Below are positions 50,237-63,471 of a stretch of DNA of 64,000 nt, piece after piece (within the stretch, counting starts at the first letter, position 1; every line of letters starts with the position of its first letter). The stretch comes from Acidobacteriota bacterium. Its GTDB lineage: Bacteria; Acidobacteriota; Terriglobia; Terriglobales; Acidobacteriaceae. The notes beneath the pieces are model-generated. The model saw only the letters and a list, made by a program, of their open reading frames with translations, was not told the origin of the DNA and searched no databases. A program made the translations under genes and the position numbers. The stretch is taken from assembly GCA_021793405.1 (NCBI GenBank), contig JAJYSV010000001.1:124001-188000 (forward strand). Direction: 5' to 3'.

Positions 50237-50770
50237 CTAAGCATTGCGCCGCTTGCTGGCGGCGATGGCGGCTCGCGCATCGCGGTCGTCTTCGCGGCGC
50301 CGTTCCGTCTCCCGCTTGTCCCAGGTCTGTTTTCCTTTGGCGACGGCAAGCTCGCACTTCACGCGCCCCCTGCGGAAGTAGAGCCGGGTAGGAATCAGCG
50401 TGAGGCCCTTCTGCTGCACCTTGCCCAGCAGCTTGCGCACTTCCTCGCCGTGCAGCAGCAATTTGCGCGTGCGCACCGCGTCATGGTTCGTATAGCTGCC
50501 GTGGGAGTATGGACCAATATGCAGATTCAGCAGAAATGCTTCTCCGTCTTTCACCAGGCCATAGGCATCGCGCAGGTTGGCTTTGCCCTCGCGGATCGAT
50601 TTGACCTCGGTGCCGCGCAGCACAACCCCGGCCTCAAACTTTTCCAGCAAAAAATAATTATGCCCGGCCTGCCGGTTCACGGCCGCATCGCGCTCACCGG
50701 AAGCGACCGGGTCGCGCGGCTTGGGCTTCTTCGGCGGGTTCGGGACAATACTGGTAGGTGGACGTGGCAT
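50237..50770 (-). CDS. smpB: SsrA-binding protein SmpB
   Basis: The product is 177 aa, slightly longer than the usual 155-165 because of a Pro/Arg-rich N-terminal extension of about 25 residues. The beta-barrel is typical: NRQAGHNYFLLEKFEAGVVL, GTEVKSIREGKANLRDAY and the LHIGPYSHGSYTNHD segment. The basic C-terminal tail (DKRETERRREDDRDARA) enters the ribosomal decoding path. SmpB with tmRNA rescues stalled ribosomes; I find no ssrA gene in this window. Confidence 0.95.
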   Translation of the reverse strand: MPRPPTSIVPNPPKKPKPRDPVASGERDAAVNRQAGHNYFLLEKFEAGVVLRGTEVKSIREGKANLRDAYGLVKDGEAFLLNLHIGPYSHGSYTNHDAVRTRKLLLHGEEVRKLLGKVQQKGLTLIPTRLYFRRGRVKCELAVAKGKQTWDKRETERRREDDRDARAAIAASKRRNA

Positions 50771-51069
50771 GATTGGGCGTCTTTCAGCGGTTCCACCCCA
50801 TGCGAGCGGGAGGAAAACTATCTACGCGCAGCCCTTGCAGCCGGCAAATGCTGCTTGAAAACAAAGCTCGACGGTCTCAACGCGGAGTGGACTCGCTCCA
50901 AATTCCCATGCTAGCACGCGAGTCACGGCCGCTACCTCGCGGCGGGAGCGGGTCCAAGCCAGAGTCATACCCCGCGATGGTATATTGATGGTAACGTCCT
51001 GCTGCTTTGGCCGGAACGAAACGTCCGTTGATCGTCGGGAGATCAAAACTGCCAGGATGCGTCGAATTC

Positions 51070-53571
51070 ATGCCTTTGCCCTTTCACCCCTTTATCGATC
51101 GGGATCTCTGCAACGCCGCAAGCCGATCCGGGCATTCATGCACCGGTCTGCCTGAATCTCCGTTGCGGCACTCTGTGTCTCGTTTAGCTCTCTCACGCGC
51201 ATCGTGTATTTTCGGCTGGTTTGGCCTCCTCATCGTTTGCTTCGCGGTGCAGGGAGCGTTGTCTCCGCTGCGCGCCGAGTCCGCAAAGAGCTATTTCAAA
51301 CACGGCAAGCAAGCCGAGATTCGCGAAGACTACATCACCGCGTATCAGGATTACCGGCAGGCCTGGCTGGCAAAGCCGAAGGACATGGAATACAAGGAGT
51401 CGTATCAGCGGCTCAAATTCCAGGCGGCTTTCCAATACGTCACCATGGGCCGGAAGTTGCGCGATCAAGGCCAGTTAAACGACGCGCTGACCGATTTTTT
51501 GCGCGCAATCGAAATCGACCCCAGCAATGAAGCTGCGCAGCAGGAGGCGCGGCGGATGCGAGCCCTGATCAATGGCAAGACCGCATCGCAGCCGAACTCG
51601 GACCAGATGGCCGTCACTTCCGCCCAGGACCAGCGGGAACTGCAGGATCTGGGTGGCCCGCTGCAGTTGAAGCCAATCTCCAATGAACCGATCACCATCC
51701 ACATGGTGGCCGACACAAAAGTCATCTATCAGACGATTGGCAAACTTGCCGGCATCAACATCCTGTTCGACCCCGATTACACTTCGAAACGCATCCCCAT
51801 CGATCTGAACCGCGTCACGCTGTACGACGCTCTTCGCAGCATCGCTTTCGTTTCGCAGACCTTCTGGAGACCGGTGACCGCGGACACGATTTTTGTCGCG
51901 ACAGATAACCGCCAAAAGCGCGCGGAACTGGAAGAGCAGGCGGTACAGACGTTCTATCTGGGCAACATCACACAAGCGAACGACCTGAACGAAGTCCTGA
52001 ATGCGGTGCGGAACCTGATGGACACCACCGTCAAAATGCAGGCGGTCCCCAGCCAAAACGCCATCGTCATGCGCGGCACTCCGGACCAGCTGCTATTGGC
52101 GCAAAAGATCATCGACGATCTGGATAAGGCCAAGCCGGAAGTGGTCGTCGACATGGCAGTCCTTGAAGTGAATAAGGACCTGCTGCGGAACATCGGCCTC
52201 CAGTTGCCCGGCTCCATCGGCGTGCAGTTGCAAAGCTCGACGGCAGCCACGACAGCGACCACGACGACCCCCACCACGGGCGTCACTGGCACCACGGGAA
52301 CCACCCCCAACCTGACTGTCAACGATTTAGGCAATCTCAATGGAACGAATTTCGGCATCACGATCGGCACGGCCACGCTGAACATGCTGTTGACCGATTC
52401 CGACACGCGGGTCCTGCAAAATCCGCAAATTCGCGCGGTGGACGGTGAAAAAGCCACCCTCAAGATCGGATCGAGAGTCCCCATCGCCACCGGCTCCTTC
52501 TCCCCTGGCGCCGGAATTGCCGCAGCCGGCATCAGCCCGCTGGTCAGCACCCAGTTTTCTTACATCGATGTCGGTGTACAGATCGAGATGCAGCCGACCA
52601 TCCATTACGATGGCGACGTTTCGATGAAGCTTCACATTACCGTCTCCAACATCACCAGCTACGACAATCTGGGCGGCATCGAGCAACCTGTCATCGGCAA
52701 CCAGGAAATTCAGCAGGTGATCCGCATGAAGGAAGGTTCTGCCAACCTGCTGGGGGGCATTCTTCAACACACAGAGAGTCTGACGGTGGGAGGCACTCCC
52801 GGGCTGGGAGAAATTCCTCTTCTCAAGTATCTCTTCAGTTCCCAGCAGACGGAAACTGTGAACGATGAGATCGTTTTCGTGCTGATTCCACACCTGGTGC
52901 GGGGCATCAATCTGAGCCCGCTCAACCTGCGCACCATCGATACCGGAACGAGCACCAACGTAAGTTTGCGCATGGACCCGGCCACTGTGGGAACGTCGTC
53001 GGCTGCCATCACACGCACCGGCCAACCCCCGCTTACCTTTGAGCCGAGCACGCCGCCGCCGACAGCCGCGGAGGCAGCCAATCAGGCGGCCGGCCAGATG
53101 GCGCAGAACATGCAAAATGCGGGAGAGAACCCGCCCGACACGCTGGCAGGCGGCTCTCCGCTCCAACTTTCCTTCTCTCCGCAACAGAGTGTCCACAAAG
53201 TGGGGACCACCTTCCAGATGCAGCTGGATTTGAGCGGCGGTCACGACGTTTTCTCGGTGCCTATGCAGTTGCACTACGATCCCAACGTGCTCAGCCTGAT
53301 CAATGTCGATACTGGAAGCCTGCTGGCGAAAGATGGCCAGACGACCGCTCTGGTCCATCGCGACGATGGCAACGGGAATGTCACCATCAGCACTTCGCGG
53401 CCACCAGGAGTCAAGGGCATCACCGGCAACGGAGACCTCTGCACGCTCACCTTCCAGGCCAAGGCCCCGGGCGATGCTACGATTCAGATCATCAAATCCG
53501 CTGCCCGCAATAGCGCGCAAACAGTCCTGCCCGTCCTTGCGGGCTCCCCCGCCGTCGTACATGTGCAGTAA
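51070..53571 (+). CDS. Secretin (type II/IV pilus type) with N-terminal TPR and C-terminal cohesin-like domain
   Basis: About 833 aa from ATG 51070; the start is weakly supported. A hydrophobic helix (CIFGWFGLLIVCFAVQGALS) serves as signal. Residues after it form TPR-like helices (AYQDYRQAWLAKP, LNDALTDFLRAIEIDPSNEAA). N-domains of secretins follow (GINILFDPDY, LYDALRSIAF, AVPSQNAIVMRGTPDQ), then the secretin pore (RVLQNPQIRAVDGEKATLKIGSRVP, VGVQIEMQPTIHYDGDV, GLGEIPLLKYLF). The last ~140 residues, after a Pro/Ala linker, resemble a cohesin-type beta-sandwich (VGTTFQMQLDLSGGHDVFSVPMQLHYDP). It forms an outer-membrane gate for pilus or protein export; two pseudopilin genes follow. Confidence 0.9.
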   Translation: MPLPFHPFIDRDLCNAASRSGHSCTGLPESPLRHSVSRLALSRASCIFGWFGLLIVCFAVQGALSPLRAESAKSYFKHGKQAEIREDYITAYQDYRQAWLAKPKDMEYKESYQRLKFQAAFQYVTMGRKLRDQGQLNDALTDFLRAIEIDPSNEAAQQEARRMRALINGKTASQPNSDQMAVTSAQDQRELQDLGGPLQLKPISNEPITIHMVADTKVIYQTIGKLAGINILFDPDYTSKRIPIDLNRVTLYDALRSIAFVSQTFWRPVTADTIFVATDNRQKRAELEEQAVQTFYLGNITQANDLNEVLNAVRNLMDTTVKMQAVPSQNAIVMRGTPDQLLLAQKIIDDLDKAKPEVVVDMAVLEVNKDLLRNIGLQLPGSIGVQLQSSTAATTATTTTPTTGVTGTTGTTPNLTVNDLGNLNGTNFGITIGTATLNMLLTDSDTRVLQNPQIRAVDGEKATLKIGSRVPIATGSFSPGAGIAAAGISPLVSTQFSYIDVGVQIEMQPTIHYDGDVSMKLHITVSNITSYDNLGGIEQPVIGNQEIQQVIRMKEGSANLLGGILQHTESLTVGGTPGLGEIPLLKYLFSSQQTETVNDEIVFVLIPHLVRGINLSPLNLRTIDTGTSTNVSLRMDPATVGTSSAAITRTGQPPLTFEPSTPPPTAAEAANQAAGQMAQNMQNAGENPPDTLAGGSPLQLSFSPQQSVHKVGTTFQMQLDLSGGHDVFSVPMQLHYDPNVLSLINVDTGSLLAKDGQTTALVHRDDGNGNVTISTSRPPGVKGITGNGDLCTLTFQAKAPGDATIQIIKSAARNSAQTVLPVLAGSPAVVHVQ

Positions 53572-53597: not shown

Positions 53598-54188
53598 ATG
53601 AAGTTGAGCAATGTCGATGCGGATCGCGCTCGCGGTGGTCATTGCCACGAGCGTGGAACCTCCGCGGAGATTCCCAGGGAGCACCCATTCGGCATGAACA
53701 CCGCTGGCCGCGTGCGCCCGTTCCTGCGACAAACCATGGGGGACCGGGGACAACAGGGACTGACGCTGGTCGAGTTGATTGTCACCATCGCCATCCTTGC
53801 CATTCTGGCGTCGGTTGCATATCCGATTGCTCGGTTCCAGATCCAGCGGCAAAAGGAGCAGGTCCTGCGCGACGATCTTTGGCAGATGCGGCATGCCATC
53901 GACAAATATAAAGACGCCGCCGATCGTCAGGCATTTCAAACCTCGATCGACAGCTATGGATATCCGCCGGACCTGGACACTCTGGTCAATGGCGTGGATG
54001 TGCAAGGGCACACGGTGAGATTTTTACGAGCAATTCCCGTCGATCCCATGACGGGCAAAAAGGATTGGGTGCTGCGCTCCATGCAGGACGATCCGGATAG
54101 CGATTCCTGGGGCGGTCAGAACGTGTTCGACGTGCATTCGGCCTCCGACGGCACGGCCTTGGATGGGACAAAGTACAACACATGGTAA
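53598..54188 (+). CDS. Type II secretion/type IV pilus pseudopilin (GspG-like), first copy
   Basis: At most 196 aa from ATG 53598 (GGGAG 9 nt upstream, 26 nt after the secretin); ATGs at 53694 and 53736 would give shorter leaders. The prepilin peptidase site is plain: GQQG followed by LTLVELIVTIAILAILASVAYPI, with Glu at position 5 of the mature helix. The globular part has the GspG-like LRAIPVDPMTGKKDW (Ca-loop/PVDPMTG motif) and ends WGGQNVFDVHSAS. With the shortest start the leader would be about 7 residues; the longest leader is unusual. Confidence 0.88.
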   Translation: MKLSNVDADRARGGHCHERGTSAEIPREHPFGMNTAGRVRPFLRQTMGDRGQQGLTLVELIVTIAILAILASVAYPIARFQIQRQKEQVLRDDLWQMRHAIDKYKDAADRQAFQTSIDSYGYPPDLDTLVNGVDVQGHTVRFLRAIPVDPMTGKKDWVLRSMQDDPDSDSWGGQNVFDVHSASDGTALDGTKYNTW

Positions 54189-54664
54189 CTGTGAGCCAAG
54201 CGATATCGCGCCAATTCCGCACCCTGCGTTTTAAAGCAGGAACCTGGAATTCTTTGCCGAATGCGCGCCGATCCGGCACGCGCCAGCGAGGCTTTACGCT
54301 GGTGGAGCTGATGGTCGTGATGCTCATCATTTCCATTCTGCTGGCCATCGCCGTACCCAGCTATATCTCCGCCATCCGCAGCGCGAGAGAGGCGGCGCTG
54401 CGCCAGGACCTGCATACCATGCGGGACGCGATCGAGCAGTACACGGAAGATAAGCAGGAAGCTCCGCAATCCCTGGACGATCTGGTGCAGGCCGGTTACC
54501 TCAAATCCCTACCCGTCGATCCCATGACCCACAGCGACACCACCTGGGTTCCGGACCAATCGGACTCCTACAGCAGCGTCGATCAGTCGCAGCCCGGAAT
54601 TGACGATGTCCACAGCGGTTCCCAGTTGACCGGCAGCAACGGAACTCCCTATTCGCAATGGTGA
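54182..54664 (+). CDS. Pseudopilin (GspG-like), second copy
   Basis: The product is 160 aa, overlapping the first pseudopilin by 7 nt. The cleavage site is RQRG followed by FTLVELMVVMLIISILLAIAVPSYI, with Glu5. The body repeats the plan of the previous gene: EAALRQDLHTMRDAIEQYTEDK, SLPVDPMTHSDTTW and a DDVHSGS end. The two genes are probably tandem duplicates or a major/minor pair. A positively charged leader of about 37 residues precedes the site, longer than in model systems. No ATPase or platform protein gene is in the window. Confidence 0.9.
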   Translation: MVTVSQAISRQFRTLRFKAGTWNSLPNARRSGTRQRGFTLVELMVVMLIISILLAIAVPSYISAIRSAREAALRQDLHTMRDAIEQYTEDKQEAPQSLDDLVQAGYLKSLPVDPMTHSDTTWVPDQSDSYSSVDQSQPGIDDVHSGSQLTGSNGTPYSQW

Positions 54665-54668
54665 TCGG

Positions 54669-55520
54669 ATGGGAAAACAAGGCACTGCAATCGATTTTGA
54701 CCCGAAACTGGGCTCTCAACCCAGTCAGTCCGCCGTCTATCGAACCTACCGATACATGCAAGCCAATGCGGCCGGGCGATTTCACAATCCCGCAGGCGAC
54801 AATCTGGCAGGACGGCTGATCGTATGCGCGGGTTTCGGAACGGAGGGCGCGGAACTGGCGCTGGCTTCGACTATCGCCGGCGGCGCGTTTCTCGGCATCG
54901 ATTCCTCCTCGGAACATCTAAAGGCGGCCGTTCGCAACGGCTGCTGCGATTTCATGGTAAACACGCTCGATGAATCGCTGCGGGTGTTGAAAAATGAACT
55001 GCGCAAGCAAACGGCGCTGTCCGTTGGCCTGCTCGGGCTGGCATCCGAGATTTTCCCGGCTATGGTGGAACGCGGCGTCCAGCCGGATTTAATTGCGGAA
55101 AGATTGCCGCAACGGAGCGAGGACGATGTAGCCATCCCTCGACAGTCACTGCTACAACTGCTGGAGCGAGGGGCTTGGAACCTGGACGCGCGGCCGATAG
55201 ATGTCGCGCAACATGCCGCGCCTATCGAAGTCGTTTGGACAACCGCCAACGCGGCTGACTTGAAGCGCTTGGACACCGTGGCGCTGGCACTGTTGCCGGA
55301 GGACGACCGTGTCCGGCGCAGATGGCTGTTGCAAGCGCCAGGATGCTTCCATCGCCAGATCCCACTGCGGCGTGTATTGGGGCTGGAACCGGAGGAGTTG
55401 AACAGGTTATTGAGCAGCTTCCAGGACGAGGCATCTACCGGGAGACTGCAGGCACCCGCTTCCGTCTGCTGGGAAAGTTCAAACGGCGCAGAGCAGACGG
55501 TCACGCTGCAACCCTGCTGA
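54669..55520 (+). CDS. Degenerate urocanase-like protein
   Basis: The product is 283 aa, 4 nt after the second pseudopilin. Residues about 45-135 follow the NAD-binding core of urocanate hydratase: NLAGRLIVCAGFGTEGAELA against the HutU pattern NLAG-x-W-x-x-x-AGLGGMGGAQ, then TLDESLRVLKNEL, ALSVGLLGLASEIFPAMVERGVQPDL. Near residue 220 LPEDDRVRRRWLLQA also fits HutU. HutU is about 555 aa; here the first ~120 residues, the active-site Cys (ARICW in HutU; LRRVL here) and the last domain are missing or changed. It is therefore unlikely to be a working urocanase, and there are no other hut genes nearby. Its place behind pseudopilins is unexplained. Confidence 0.75.
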   Translation: MGKQGTAIDFDPKLGSQPSQSAVYRTYRYMQANAAGRFHNPAGDNLAGRLIVCAGFGTEGAELALASTIAGGAFLGIDSSSEHLKAAVRNGCCDFMVNTLDESLRVLKNELRKQTALSVGLLGLASEIFPAMVERGVQPDLIAERLPQRSEDDVAIPRQSLLQLLERGAWNLDARPIDVAQHAAPIEVVWTTANAADLKRLDTVALALLPEDDRVRRRWLLQAPGCFHRQIPLRRVLGLEPEELNRLLSSFQDEASTGRLQAPASVCWESSNGAEQTVTLQPC

Positions 55521-55553: not shown

Positions 55554-56174
55554 TCAAAGAGCTGCTTGGTTGCTTCTTTTCGCCCCTGCGGCCACTCCGT
55601 GGATCGCTTTCCAAAGGGCGGCAATGCCGCGCCCGTCCCTGGCCGAGCAAATGAGAATCTCATCTGTCCCCAGCGCCTCCCGCAATCGCTTCGTCGCAAC
55701 CACCCGCTGGTTACCCGAAAGCTTGTCCGCCTTGGTGCCGACCAGGATGCGCGGCCGATGAATACTGTCAAGATACTCCGCCAGCATGGCGTCACCCGGC
55801 TGCGGCGGCACATTCATATCGACCAGGCAAACGCAGGCCGCCAAGCTCTCGCGCGTGGCGAGATAGGGATTGATGAATGCCGGCCATTCGGCGCTGATTG
55901 AGCGCGATAGTTTCGCATATCCATAGCCCGGCAGATCCGCCAGAATCAGTTCCGGCCGGACTTGCGAGGACGCGTGTAGCGCAAAGAAGTTAATCGCCCG
56001 CGTGCGGCCCGGAGTGGACGAGACGCGCGCCGCCGGTTCGCCTAACAGCGCATTGATCAGGCTGGATTTGCCGACGTTGGAGCGACCGAGAAAAGCGATC
56101 TCCGGCACCGAGGACGCTGGGAATTGCGCGGCACTCGTCGCCGACAAGAGAAATTCTGTGTGATACCGAAACAT
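55554..56174 (-). CDS. engB: Ribosome-biogenesis GTPase YsxC/EngB
   Basis: The product is 206 aa from ATG 56174 (GTG 56186 is an alternative). G motifs are intact: FLGRSNVGKSSLINALLG (G1), TPGRTRAINFF (G2), LADLPGYGYAK (G3), VGTKADKLS (G4) and CSARDGRG (G5). EngB helps assemble the 50S subunit. It converges on the urocanase-like gene, their stops 33 nt apart. Confidence 0.95.
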   Translation of the reverse strand: MFRYHTEFLLSATSAAQFPASSVPEIAFLGRSNVGKSSLINALLGEPAARVSSTPGRTRAINFFALHASSQVRPELILADLPGYGYAKLSRSISAEWPAFINPYLATRESLAACVCLVDMNVPPQPGDAMLAEYLDSIHRPRILVGTKADKLSGNQRVVATKRLREALGTDEILICSARDGRGIAALWKAIHGVAAGAKRSNQAAL

Positions 56175-56314
56175 AGTGGACCGCACCCGATCTTAATTCG
56201 ATGGCGTTTACCCACTTTGCGTCGCGAATCTCGACGGACATAGCGGCAAGCAATTCTGCACACACAGCGCGGAAAAACAGCTGGGTCGCAACATCATGAG
56301 GCAAACACCTGAAT

Positions 56315-58312
56315 TTACTGTACGGGAAACAGCGACATAGCGAACTCCCCTTCTTCCACCCCTGGCTTCACGCAATCGCGTCCAGCTTGCTTGGCCGCAT
56401 ACAGGGCGCGGTCCGCGCCGTCGAGGAGCGCGTCCGGACGCACGTTCGTGCTCGGCACTTGAGCCGCCACTCCCACGCTGACGGTCAGGTGCAAGGGACA
56501 GCCAGTGCCCACGTCGAACTCGTAATCTCGGACTTTCTGACGGAGGCTTTCCGCCATCAGGATCGCCCTGGCCAGATTCACGTCCGGCAGCAGGATGGAA
56601 AATTCTTCCCCACCATAGCGGGCAACCAGATCGCCCGGACGCCTCCCCATCTCCCGCAGGATGGCGGCGACAGCCTGGAGACAAGTGTCCCCAGCGCGAT
56701 GCCCATAGGTGTCGTTGATACTCTTGAAGTGGTCCAGGTCGACCATCAACAGGGCCACGGGATGGTCGGCGCGGTAACCCCGCCTCCATTCCATATCGAG
56801 GACCTGATCGAAACGTCTGCGATTGGCCAGCTGGGTCAGGCTGTCGCGTTGCGCCTGCTGCACCACTTGTTCATGCGCCTCTGCCAGCTTTCGTTCAGCA
56901 TCGACCCGCAGAGAAATGTCGCGGACGTTCGCCACGAATGCATTCGGTTCGCCGGTGGTGTCGTCGAACAGCGTGCGAAGGACGGTTTCCATCCACACAT
57001 ATCGTCCATCCTTATGTCGGGTGCGATAGCGAAAAGTACGCGGTCCTTCTCCCTGGAACAATTCCTTCAGTACGTGGCGGAATCCCGCTACATCGTCCGG
57101 GTACATCCAATCTATGGGATCTCCATTCGTCCATTCGTCCGGACTCCACCCCAGGACGTCCTGTACGGCGGGGGAAACATACAAACGGCGTCCTTCCAAA
57201 CTGCACAACACAACAATGTCCTGGGAATTGTCCGCCAGCAGGCGATAGCGCCGTACCCCGCGCTCCAGTGTTTTCCGTAGCAACCGCTCGCGTTCGACAA
57301 TCGCGGCAAATGGCACGATCGATGCCAGCAACACCAGGACGGAGACTTGCAGTAGAAAAATACTTCGGTGCAAGTTCGCGCCTGATTCCATCCAAAAAGG
57401 TCCGCTGCCGCGCAGGGTGAAAAACGCGCCCGCGATGGTGACTTCGAACGTCGCGATCACTGCTCCCAGCATGCCCGCCTGAAAAACGACCAGCATCAGC
57501 AGGGGCAGAAGGAGAAAGGCAAAATGGTGCCTGCTTTGTCCAAAGTTCATCAGTGACGCCGCCAGGATCAAGAGAAACATGCCGACAGTACGGTAGATTT
57601 GCCGTCCCGCAAACAGGCTTCGCAGACCGGGGTTCCAAAGCGCAAGCGTGCAGGGAGTCATCACCGCCATCCCTAAAGCGTGACTGGGAAACCATGCGGC
57701 GAAGAACGGCGCAAACGGCGTCCCCAAGGCAACCGAATCGAGCGTGGACGCCAGCAGGGCCGAGACCAGCGGAGCCAGCAGGACGGCAAAGGCCATGAAT
57801 TGGATCATCGTTGCCGCCGACGCCAGGTCCGGCGGATGCTTCGGATATAGCTGTTGCTCGCAGTCGAGCGTCCAGCGTATCAGCCGCGCCGCAGCAAAAA
57901 TTTCTACGATGTTGCACGCCACGATCGCGCCGCTCATCGCGAGTGAATTTCCCGTGATGGAAAGGGAAATCGCGCCGCCCACCCAGGCTGCCAGCAGCCA
58001 GATCCACCAGCCTCGTATGGGGCGGACTACAAGGAGAGCGGCCAGAATTCCATTCGCCGGCCAGAAGACCGCGACCAACCCAGTGCCGCGCTGCAACCCG
58101 GCTCCGCCGATATACGAGAGCCCGAACATCGCTCCTACGACCGCCAGGGCGGCGATCAATAAAATGCCTTGGAGATGCTCCTCCCGCTCGACGAAAGGCC
58201 AAATAGGTTCGACCTCAATGTCCACGTTCGAGAATAATCTCTGCACAACGGGCTCCGCCTCAGCAACGCAGTCCGACAAGGACCGTTCGTATACCATTCC
58301 GCATGATTCCAT
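56315..58312 (-). CDS. MASE1-PAS-GGDEF membrane diguanylate cyclase
   Basis: The product is 665 aa. Residues about 45-345 hold eight or more membrane helices with the MASE1 pattern (VFWPANGILAALLVV, WFPSHALGMAVMTP). A PAS domain follows (YRLLADNSQDIVVLCSLEGRRLYVS ... FRYRTRHKDGRYVWMETVL), then a GGDEF domain (RDSLTQLANRRRFDQVL, VDLDHFKSINDTYGHRAGD) whose active-site loop reads RYGGEEFSILLPD. GGEEF loops are catalytically competent for making cyclic-di-GMP. An upstream RxxD inhibitory site is not obvious. The first 40 residues are unusual for MASE1 proteins, so the start may be further in. Confidence 0.92.
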   Translation of the reverse strand: MESCGMVYERSLSDCVAEAEPVVQRLFSNVDIEVEPIWPFVEREEHLQGILLIAALAVVGAMFGLSYIGGAGLQRGTGLVAVFWPANGILAALLVVRPIRGWWIWLLAAWVGGAISLSITGNSLAMSGAIVACNIVEIFAAARLIRWTLDCEQQLYPKHPPDLASAATMIQFMAFAVLLAPLVSALLASTLDSVALGTPFAPFFAAWFPSHALGMAVMTPCTLALWNPGLRSLFAGRQIYRTVGMFLLILAASLMNFGQSRHHFAFLLLPLLMLVVFQAGMLGAVIATFEVTIAGAFFTLRGSGPFWMESGANLHRSIFLLQVSVLVLLASIVPFAAIVERERLLRKTLERGVRRYRLLADNSQDIVVLCSLEGRRLYVSPAVQDVLGWSPDEWTNGDPIDWMYPDDVAGFRHVLKELFQGEGPRTFRYRTRHKDGRYVWMETVLRTLFDDTTGEPNAFVANVRDISLRVDAERKLAEAHEQVVQQAQRDSLTQLANRRRFDQVLDMEWRRGYRADHPVALLMVDLDHFKSINDTYGHRAGDTCLQAVAAILREMGRRPGDLVARYGGEEFSILLPDVNLARAILMAESLRQKVRDYEFDVGTGCPLHLTVSVGVAAQVPSTNVRPDALLDGADRALYAAKQAGRDCVKPGVEEGEFAMSLFPVQ

Positions 58313-62519: not shown

Positions 62520-62763
62520 ACAGACCTGCTTTCCTGGAAACGCGCTCACCACCTTGCTTTTCTGCAAGTAAAATCTAGTGGAAGCCGGTCTCGGCACCTA
62601 ATGAGGGCGAGAGGTGCTATTGTTTAGAGCCTAGCCGGTCCTGCTCCATGGTTGTCTGTTCGGCTACCGACATAGCTTCGCTTCTTTTTTTATGCCAGAC
62701 ATCCGGTGCGGAGCAGATATTAACGGCATACGGTTCCACACGAAAGCGAGGTGTGATTCCGAC

Positions 62764-63471
62764 ATGAGCAAATTTCAGAACACACTTTTGAAGACGTTAA
62801 GTCCGGACGCCATTGCGCGGCTGTCTCTCCAGCCGGTCAAATTCGAGCTGAAACATGAAATCGAATATCCAGGCAAAGCCATCGAACATCTTTATTTTGT
62901 GGAAGCGGGGATGGCCTCGATGACGACCACGTTCATGGATGGATCGCAGGTCGAGGTGGGAATGTTTGGATTTGAGTCCGTGATTGGCGTGTCCGCGCTG
63001 ATGGGAACAAAGCGGAGTCTGAATCGCATCTACACGCAGATTGCCGGGCATGGTTTTTCCACTCGCGTGGAAATCGCCAGGCGGGAATTCGCGCGTGGCG
63101 AAGACTTTCAACATCTGGCGCTGCGGTATGTTCAAACGCAATTGCTCCAGGCGATCCAGTCGGCGGGCTGCCATGCGAAGCACAACACCGAGCAGCGGCT
63201 GGCCCGTTGGCTGCTGATCTGCGCAGACCGGGCGCACAGCAATACATTCAAGATGTCGCACGAGTTTCTCGCCGACATGCTCGGCGGCACGCGTCCCACT
63301 CTTTCGATGGCCGCCGGCCTACTGAAAGGGAAGGGACTGATCGAGTACACGCGGGGAGAGATCCATATCGTCGACTTTGCTGGACTGGAGAAAACGTCCT
63401 GCGAGTGCTATTTGATCATCAAGAATCATCTGGACAATTACGCTGAATTCGACGCCAATGCAACCGTCTAG
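62764..63471 (+). CDS. Crp/Fnr-family transcription regulator
   Basis: The product is 235 aa from ATG 62764 (GAGG upstream at loose spacing). The N-terminal beta-roll (KHEIEYPGKAIEHLYFVEAGMASM, GSQVEVGMFGFESVIGVSALMG) lacks the cAMP-binding Arg-Ser of Crp and the Fnr cysteine cluster, so its signal is unknown. The C-terminal winged helix has NTEQRLARWLLICADR and FLADMLGGTRPTLSMAAGLLKGKGLIEY, the recognition helix being GTRPTLSMAAG. Two matching palindromes just past its stop (63502-63545) are candidate binding sites. Confidence 0.9.
   Translation: MSKFQNTLLKTLSPDAIARLSLQPVKFELKHEIEYPGKAIEHLYFVEAGMASMTTTFMDGSQVEVGMFGFESVIGVSALMGTKRSLNRIYTQIAGHGFSTRVEIARREFARGEDFQHLALRYVQTQLLQAIQSAGCHAKHNTEQRLARWLLICADRAHSNTFKMSHEFLADMLGGTRPTLSMAAGLLKGKGLIEYTRGEIHIVDFAGLEKTSCECYLIIKNHLDNYAEFDANATV

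Follow-up and report, generated by a model that had tools for sequence, protein, structure and literature searches.

A short, catalytically dead urocanase-derived gene behind a secretin-pseudopilin operon in Acidobacteriota

The short gene and its neighbours

The window, which is the whole stretch of 64,000 nucleotides that was analysed, carries a secretin-pseudopilin operon with a short open reading frame related to urocanate hydratase (urocanase, HutU) at its end. The features of the locus, including those within the short protein, are as follows.

50237-50770, minus strand: smpB-like gene, divergent from the secretin gene; syntenic in short-form and full-length loci, it marks the ancestral locus
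51007-53571, plus strand: secretin, TPR stretch at its N-terminus and cohesin domain at its C-terminus, start codon uncertain (Secretin 3.2e-34; Cohesin, PF00963, 1.9e-11)
53598-54188, plus strand: pseudopilin 1, start codon uncertain (N_methyl 9.2e-9)
54182-54664, plus strand: pseudopilin 2, GspG/PilA-like (N_methyl 2.5e-10; TIGR01710 1.6e-13, below cut-off)
54669-55520, plus strand: short urocanase-derived gene, 283 aa, catalytically dead (PF01175 match, collinearity with HutU, relatives, dN/dS and AlphaFold model)
54726-55103, plus strand: Rossmann-like (former NAD) domain, residues 20-145 (Pfam match to 22-145; alternating strands and helices in the model)
54948-55007, plus strand: most conserved segment among 62 short forms, residues 94-113 (DFMVNTLDESLRVLKNELRK)
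55071-55088, plus strand: RGVQPD loop, residues 135-140, where short forms typically have Q in place of V
55224-55508, plus strand: C-terminal domain, residues 186-280, the urocanase core that follows the deleted catalytic loop (profile alignment, invariant W219, strands and helices in the model)
55554-56186, minus strand: convergent engB/ysxC-like GTPase gene, found downstream in most short-form loci

The two minus-strand genes are presumed to be smpB and engB/ysxC relatives from sequence resemblance. Also near the locus are genes for a MASE1-PAS-GGDEF protein and a CRP-family regulator (56315-58312 and 62692-63471).

The short gene runs from an ATG at 54669 to a stop at 55520 and is separated from the stop codon of pseudopilin 2 by 4 nt, as the original prediction had it. 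That prediction had also described a match of about 90 residues to the NAD-binding core of urocanate hydratase, a second matching patch, and the absence of both ends and of the active-site cysteine, and each of these observations held up. The Pfam urocanase model PF01175 matches residues 22-145 above its cut-off (6.4e-18); Urocanase_C, searched against the window protein alone, gave a sub-threshold value of 0.069. A profile built from 19 homologues aligns with solved urocanases in one continuous stretch corresponding to P. putida residues 146-444 (E 7e-24), and because this alignment is collinear we regard the two patches as belonging to a single reduced urocanase. It lacks the first 145 and the last approximately 113 residues of urocanase, together with the loop that bears the catalytic cysteine (Cys410 in P. 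putida). None of the 19 short forms compared has this cysteine, and its column is occupied by His, Ala, Asp or Glu or left as a gap; it is present in 21 of 23 full-length relatives. A PDB sequence search also returned pentatricopeptide matches; these were repeats of one motif of approximately 25 residues with domain E-values above 16, and were rejected.

In comparison with HutU proper (PF01175 plus PF17392; PDB 1UWK, 1X87 and 7JFZ), with which it is homologous over residues ~146-444, the short protein has about half the length and is without residues 1-145 and 445-557, the catalytic cysteine and most NAD contacts. It therefore carries the urocanase Rossmann domain but is not a full-length HutU of approximately 550 aa: the full-length model TIGR01228 gave 66 bits against an equivalog cut-off of 375. 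The best NCBIfam models for the Rossmann segment were those of the thiourocanate and S-methylthiourocanate hydratases (NF058530 and NF058531, 1e-22; PDB 7NED and 8Q9U), from which the short protein differs by the same deletions and for which its 76-80 bits fall far under the cut-offs of 880-930.

The predicted structure agrees with this assignment. AlphaFold modelled the window protein with a pLDDT of 90.2 and a pTM of 0.88, and a distant Granulicella-type member with values of 86 and 0.83. The only close structural matches to the model were urocanases (Z 21-25 over 266-274 residues), and the next fold scored Z 9.4. We conclude that this frame (54669-55520) is a genuine gene: it encodes a folded protein and derives from urocanase. 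We found no published description of it, nor anything relevant that joins urocanase to pilins or links it to Acidobacteria and secretins, in the open-licence papers searched.

Distribution, selection and origin

Homologues of similar length were sought and found in many genomes, most often behind secretin and pseudopilin genes. In a survey of 200 genomes of the Acidobacteriaceae-level family, each at least 90% complete, the short form was present in at least 67, a count that is a lower bound. The family comprises soil and mine-water Acidobacteriota, and the short gene spans many of its genera, with carriers (MAGs or isolates) labelled Edaphobacter, Granulicella, Acidobacterium and Silvibacterium. 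Within the genus and family the order of the locus is smpB, then secretin-pilin1-pilin2-short gene, then engB, which makes engB the second long-term neighbour of the short gene.

The reading frame is open in all 62 aligned short forms. The survey flagged in-frame stops at some loci; six of these loci were examined, and each stop proved to be the one that ends the gene. The exception is the copy of a close relative, G009, which is disrupted by deletions of 1 nt and 213 nt (L083:5997-6640). The contig has approximately threefold coverage, so that the 1-nt frameshift could be an assembly error, the 213-nt deletion less likely so. The gene is also cleanly missing from loci L188, L194, L206 and L209, where pilin2 and engB lie 35-117 nt apart and the pilins are retained, and from the same-genus genome G001 (locus L047). 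The short gene is dispensable in places, having been deleted in G001 and disrupted in G009.

Elsewhere it is maintained by purifying selection. In six independent pairs dN/dS was 0.18-0.40 (Z 3.7-11), with both halves of the protein constrained; in the pair with the nearest relative, G009, the value was 0.26, close to the 0.21 of the neighbouring pilin2. By simulation, a neutral frame of 283 codons stays free of stops in approximately 5% of cases at 0.1 changes per site and in fewer than 1% at 0.2. Neither a disrupted frame, G009 excepted, nor a dN/dS near 1 was found, and these ratios together with the open frames rule out a simple hutU pseudogene. Selection is nonetheless modest and local, because the short gene changes more rapidly than the genes beside it (dN/dS 0.2-0.4, compared with 0.03-0.10 for EngB), has been lost cleanly from G001 and from L188, L194, L206 and L209, and is disrupted in G009. 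The original prediction of a cut-down urocanase in a new role thus stands insofar as the protein is conserved at its reduced length under purifying selection; the NAD-sensing or pilus role that it proposed is unsupported by the comparative evidence.

In sister lineages a full-length hutU gene of approximately 560 aa sits directly behind pilin2 at the same locus, usually with hutI next to it, and the short forms occupy the same place. It had been anticipated that a full-length urocanase at this locus in other strains would mark the short gene as a simple pseudogene; such urocanases do exist in the sister lineages, yet a simple pseudogene is not what the short gene is. In the Rossmann segment the short forms are 42-48% identical to the native, pilin-linked HutU, compared with 34-40% for a second, separate HutU type. 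They form a single clade with a support of 100/100 in a 19-member tree, which is silent on whether that clade branches inside the native clade or the second-type HutU because long branches meet there. In a sample of 61 genomes, no short form shared a genome with a full-length HutU of the native type.

The full-length gene lies at the same place behind the same secretin-pilin1-pilin2 series, and for this reason we conclude, from synteny and similarity, that the short gene arose once, by reduction of the resident hutU in place. The ancestral urocanase resided in a secretin-pilin1-pilin2-hutU-hutI locus of Terriglobia, where it lost both of its ends and its catalytic loop in the ancestor of some members of the Acidobacteriaceae-level family. 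Since then it has been maintained as a small, folded and presumably cytosolic protein, tied neither to histidine degradation nor to the pilins.

Linkage of hutU to secretin-pseudopilin genes is widespread in Terriglobia; full-length hutU, with hutI, is joined to such an operon at L053, L055, L056, L057, L060, L062, L066, L072, L073 and G030:C32:29778-33719. At L075 (genome G053), a more distant member of the class, pilin2 is followed by frames that we take from sequence resemblance to be GspF-like and GspE-like, which suggests that the secretin and pilins form part of a type II secretion-like module, the remaining genes of which are located away from this locus in the Acidobacteriaceae-level family.

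INDEPENDENCE FROM HISTIDINE DEGRADATION

The persistence of the short gene without the Hut pathway is seen in the window's own genome, which is 100% complete and in which we found no other urocanase, no hutH and no bona fide hutI. G005, G017 and G021 are likewise without hutH, hutU and a true hutI, as are G009 and G029, whose genomes are less complete, yet all five carry the short gene (disrupted in G009); it is kept in G000, G005, G017, G021 and G029, all of which are without hutH, hutI and hutU. A second set of carriers (G002, G003, G006, G007, G025, G026 and G028) combines the short gene with a HutU of the second type, with hutH present and hutI mostly so, and in G026 and G028 (L045 and L046) the second-type gene lies in a separate hutH-hutU-hutI cluster. 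Such a cluster may be a transferred replacement for the native pathway. Since the Hut pathway is either present with a second-type HutU or absent in these carriers of the short gene, the pathway does not need the short protein, and the short protein persists where the pathway is gone. Annotated automatically as a urocanase, the short gene would lead to a false prediction of histidine degradation in these genomes.

Conserved residues and possible roles

Nine positions are invariant in the 62 short forms (G48, L75, F95, E102, K108, R112, G136, P139 and W219), and a further five (V97, R105, N109, E110 and R135) are conserved at 98%. This set centres on helix 100-113 and on the loop that follows helix 125-134, both in the Rossmann domain. 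Two changes are typical of the short forms: V to Q in the RGV(V/Q)PD loop, with Q in 17 of 19 short forms and V in 20 of 23 full-length relatives, and A to E after KN, in 18 of 19 short forms. The disrupted G009 copy reads RGVHPD.

With its catalytic residues lost and its fold and purifying selection kept, the short protein resembles pseudoenzymes in general. The explanation that we favour, and to which we would give an even chance of being right, is that it is a non-catalytic pseudoenzyme produced by in-place reduction of a pilin-linked urocanase, maintained apart from both the Hut pathway and the pilins, and probably binding a partner. It would act not by catalysis or NAD sensing but by using helix 100-113 and the RGVQPD loop to bind a partner, either a protein or some other macromolecule. 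Judging from the sequences, a putative protein partner is the most likely, because conservation sits on one Rossmann helix and the loop after it. This arrangement points to a binding face, although the segment may instead be structural, since native full-length enzymes conserve it as well. No urocanase-derived pseudoenzyme was found in the open-licence papers searched. The locus offers a natural and well-documented example in which a central enzyme of catabolism was reduced in place to a non-catalytic protein outliving its pathway. Because the ancestral full-length gene still stands at the same locus in sister lineages, one can ask which parts were kept and for what reason, and whether a second role exists in the parent enzyme.

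A further reading, though an unlikely one, takes up that last question: the pilin-linked HutU of Terriglobia may already have been bifunctional, with a second, non-catalytic role in its Rossmann domain (the helix LDEALRxLKNxxRK and the following loop), and the short gene may be what remained once catalysis became dispensable. If so, the short gene would isolate a hitherto unrecognized moonlighting function in a textbook enzyme of catabolism.

Next comes the proposal, which we consider improbable, that the short protein is a cytosolic accessory factor of the secretin-pseudopilin machine, co-translated with pilin2 and without any role for NAD. The 4-nt gap in the window, the full operon synteny within the genus, and the presence of pilin2 upstream of the short gene in 38 of the 49 short-form loci assessed would all fit such a factor. 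The linkage, however, predates the truncation and is inherited from hutU, and it is not the obligate linkage that would be expected of a component of a type II secretion or type IV pilus operon: 11 of the 49 loci have no pilin2 upstream, and in those of the 11 that were read the short gene follows unrelated genes, with engB mostly still downstream of it (L089, L097 and L102, read with 6 kb flanks, are further cases). Genomes from which the short gene is missing keep their pilins. For these reasons a dedicated pilus role is possible but not favoured, and the locus illustrates that operon neighbours can be inherited accidents and not functional partners.

Another possibility, quite unlikely in our estimation, is that the short gene is a hutU relic in slow decay, without any function under selection. 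Its fast evolution, the two deletions in G009, and the clean losses in several genomes, G001 among them, are what a relic might show. Against this stand the dN/dS values in six independent pairs and with G009, the open frames of all other short forms across a very large divergence over which a neutral frame fills with stops, the high-confidence fold in distant members, and the nine invariant positions.

Least probable among the explanations weighed is a sensor of NAD(H) or another nucleotide, for which the Rossmann-like fold, the GxGxxG motif of the window protein and an Asp or Glu that closes strand 2 in 81% (weighted) of the short forms might speak, and which is disfavoured by residue conservation. 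The middle glycine of GxGxxG is Asp in 56% of weighted short-form sequences. Of the NAD contacts, the list of which we take to be that of the HutU family annotation, the N-terminal YGG and the C-terminal GGG are wholly deleted; the Gln-Thr-Ser-x-His (QTSxH) loop, an Asn, Tyr322 and others are replaced or deleted. The short forms as a class do not carry the NAD+ contact residues of HutU; Gln130, Asp/Glu196 and Gly178 are partly retained.
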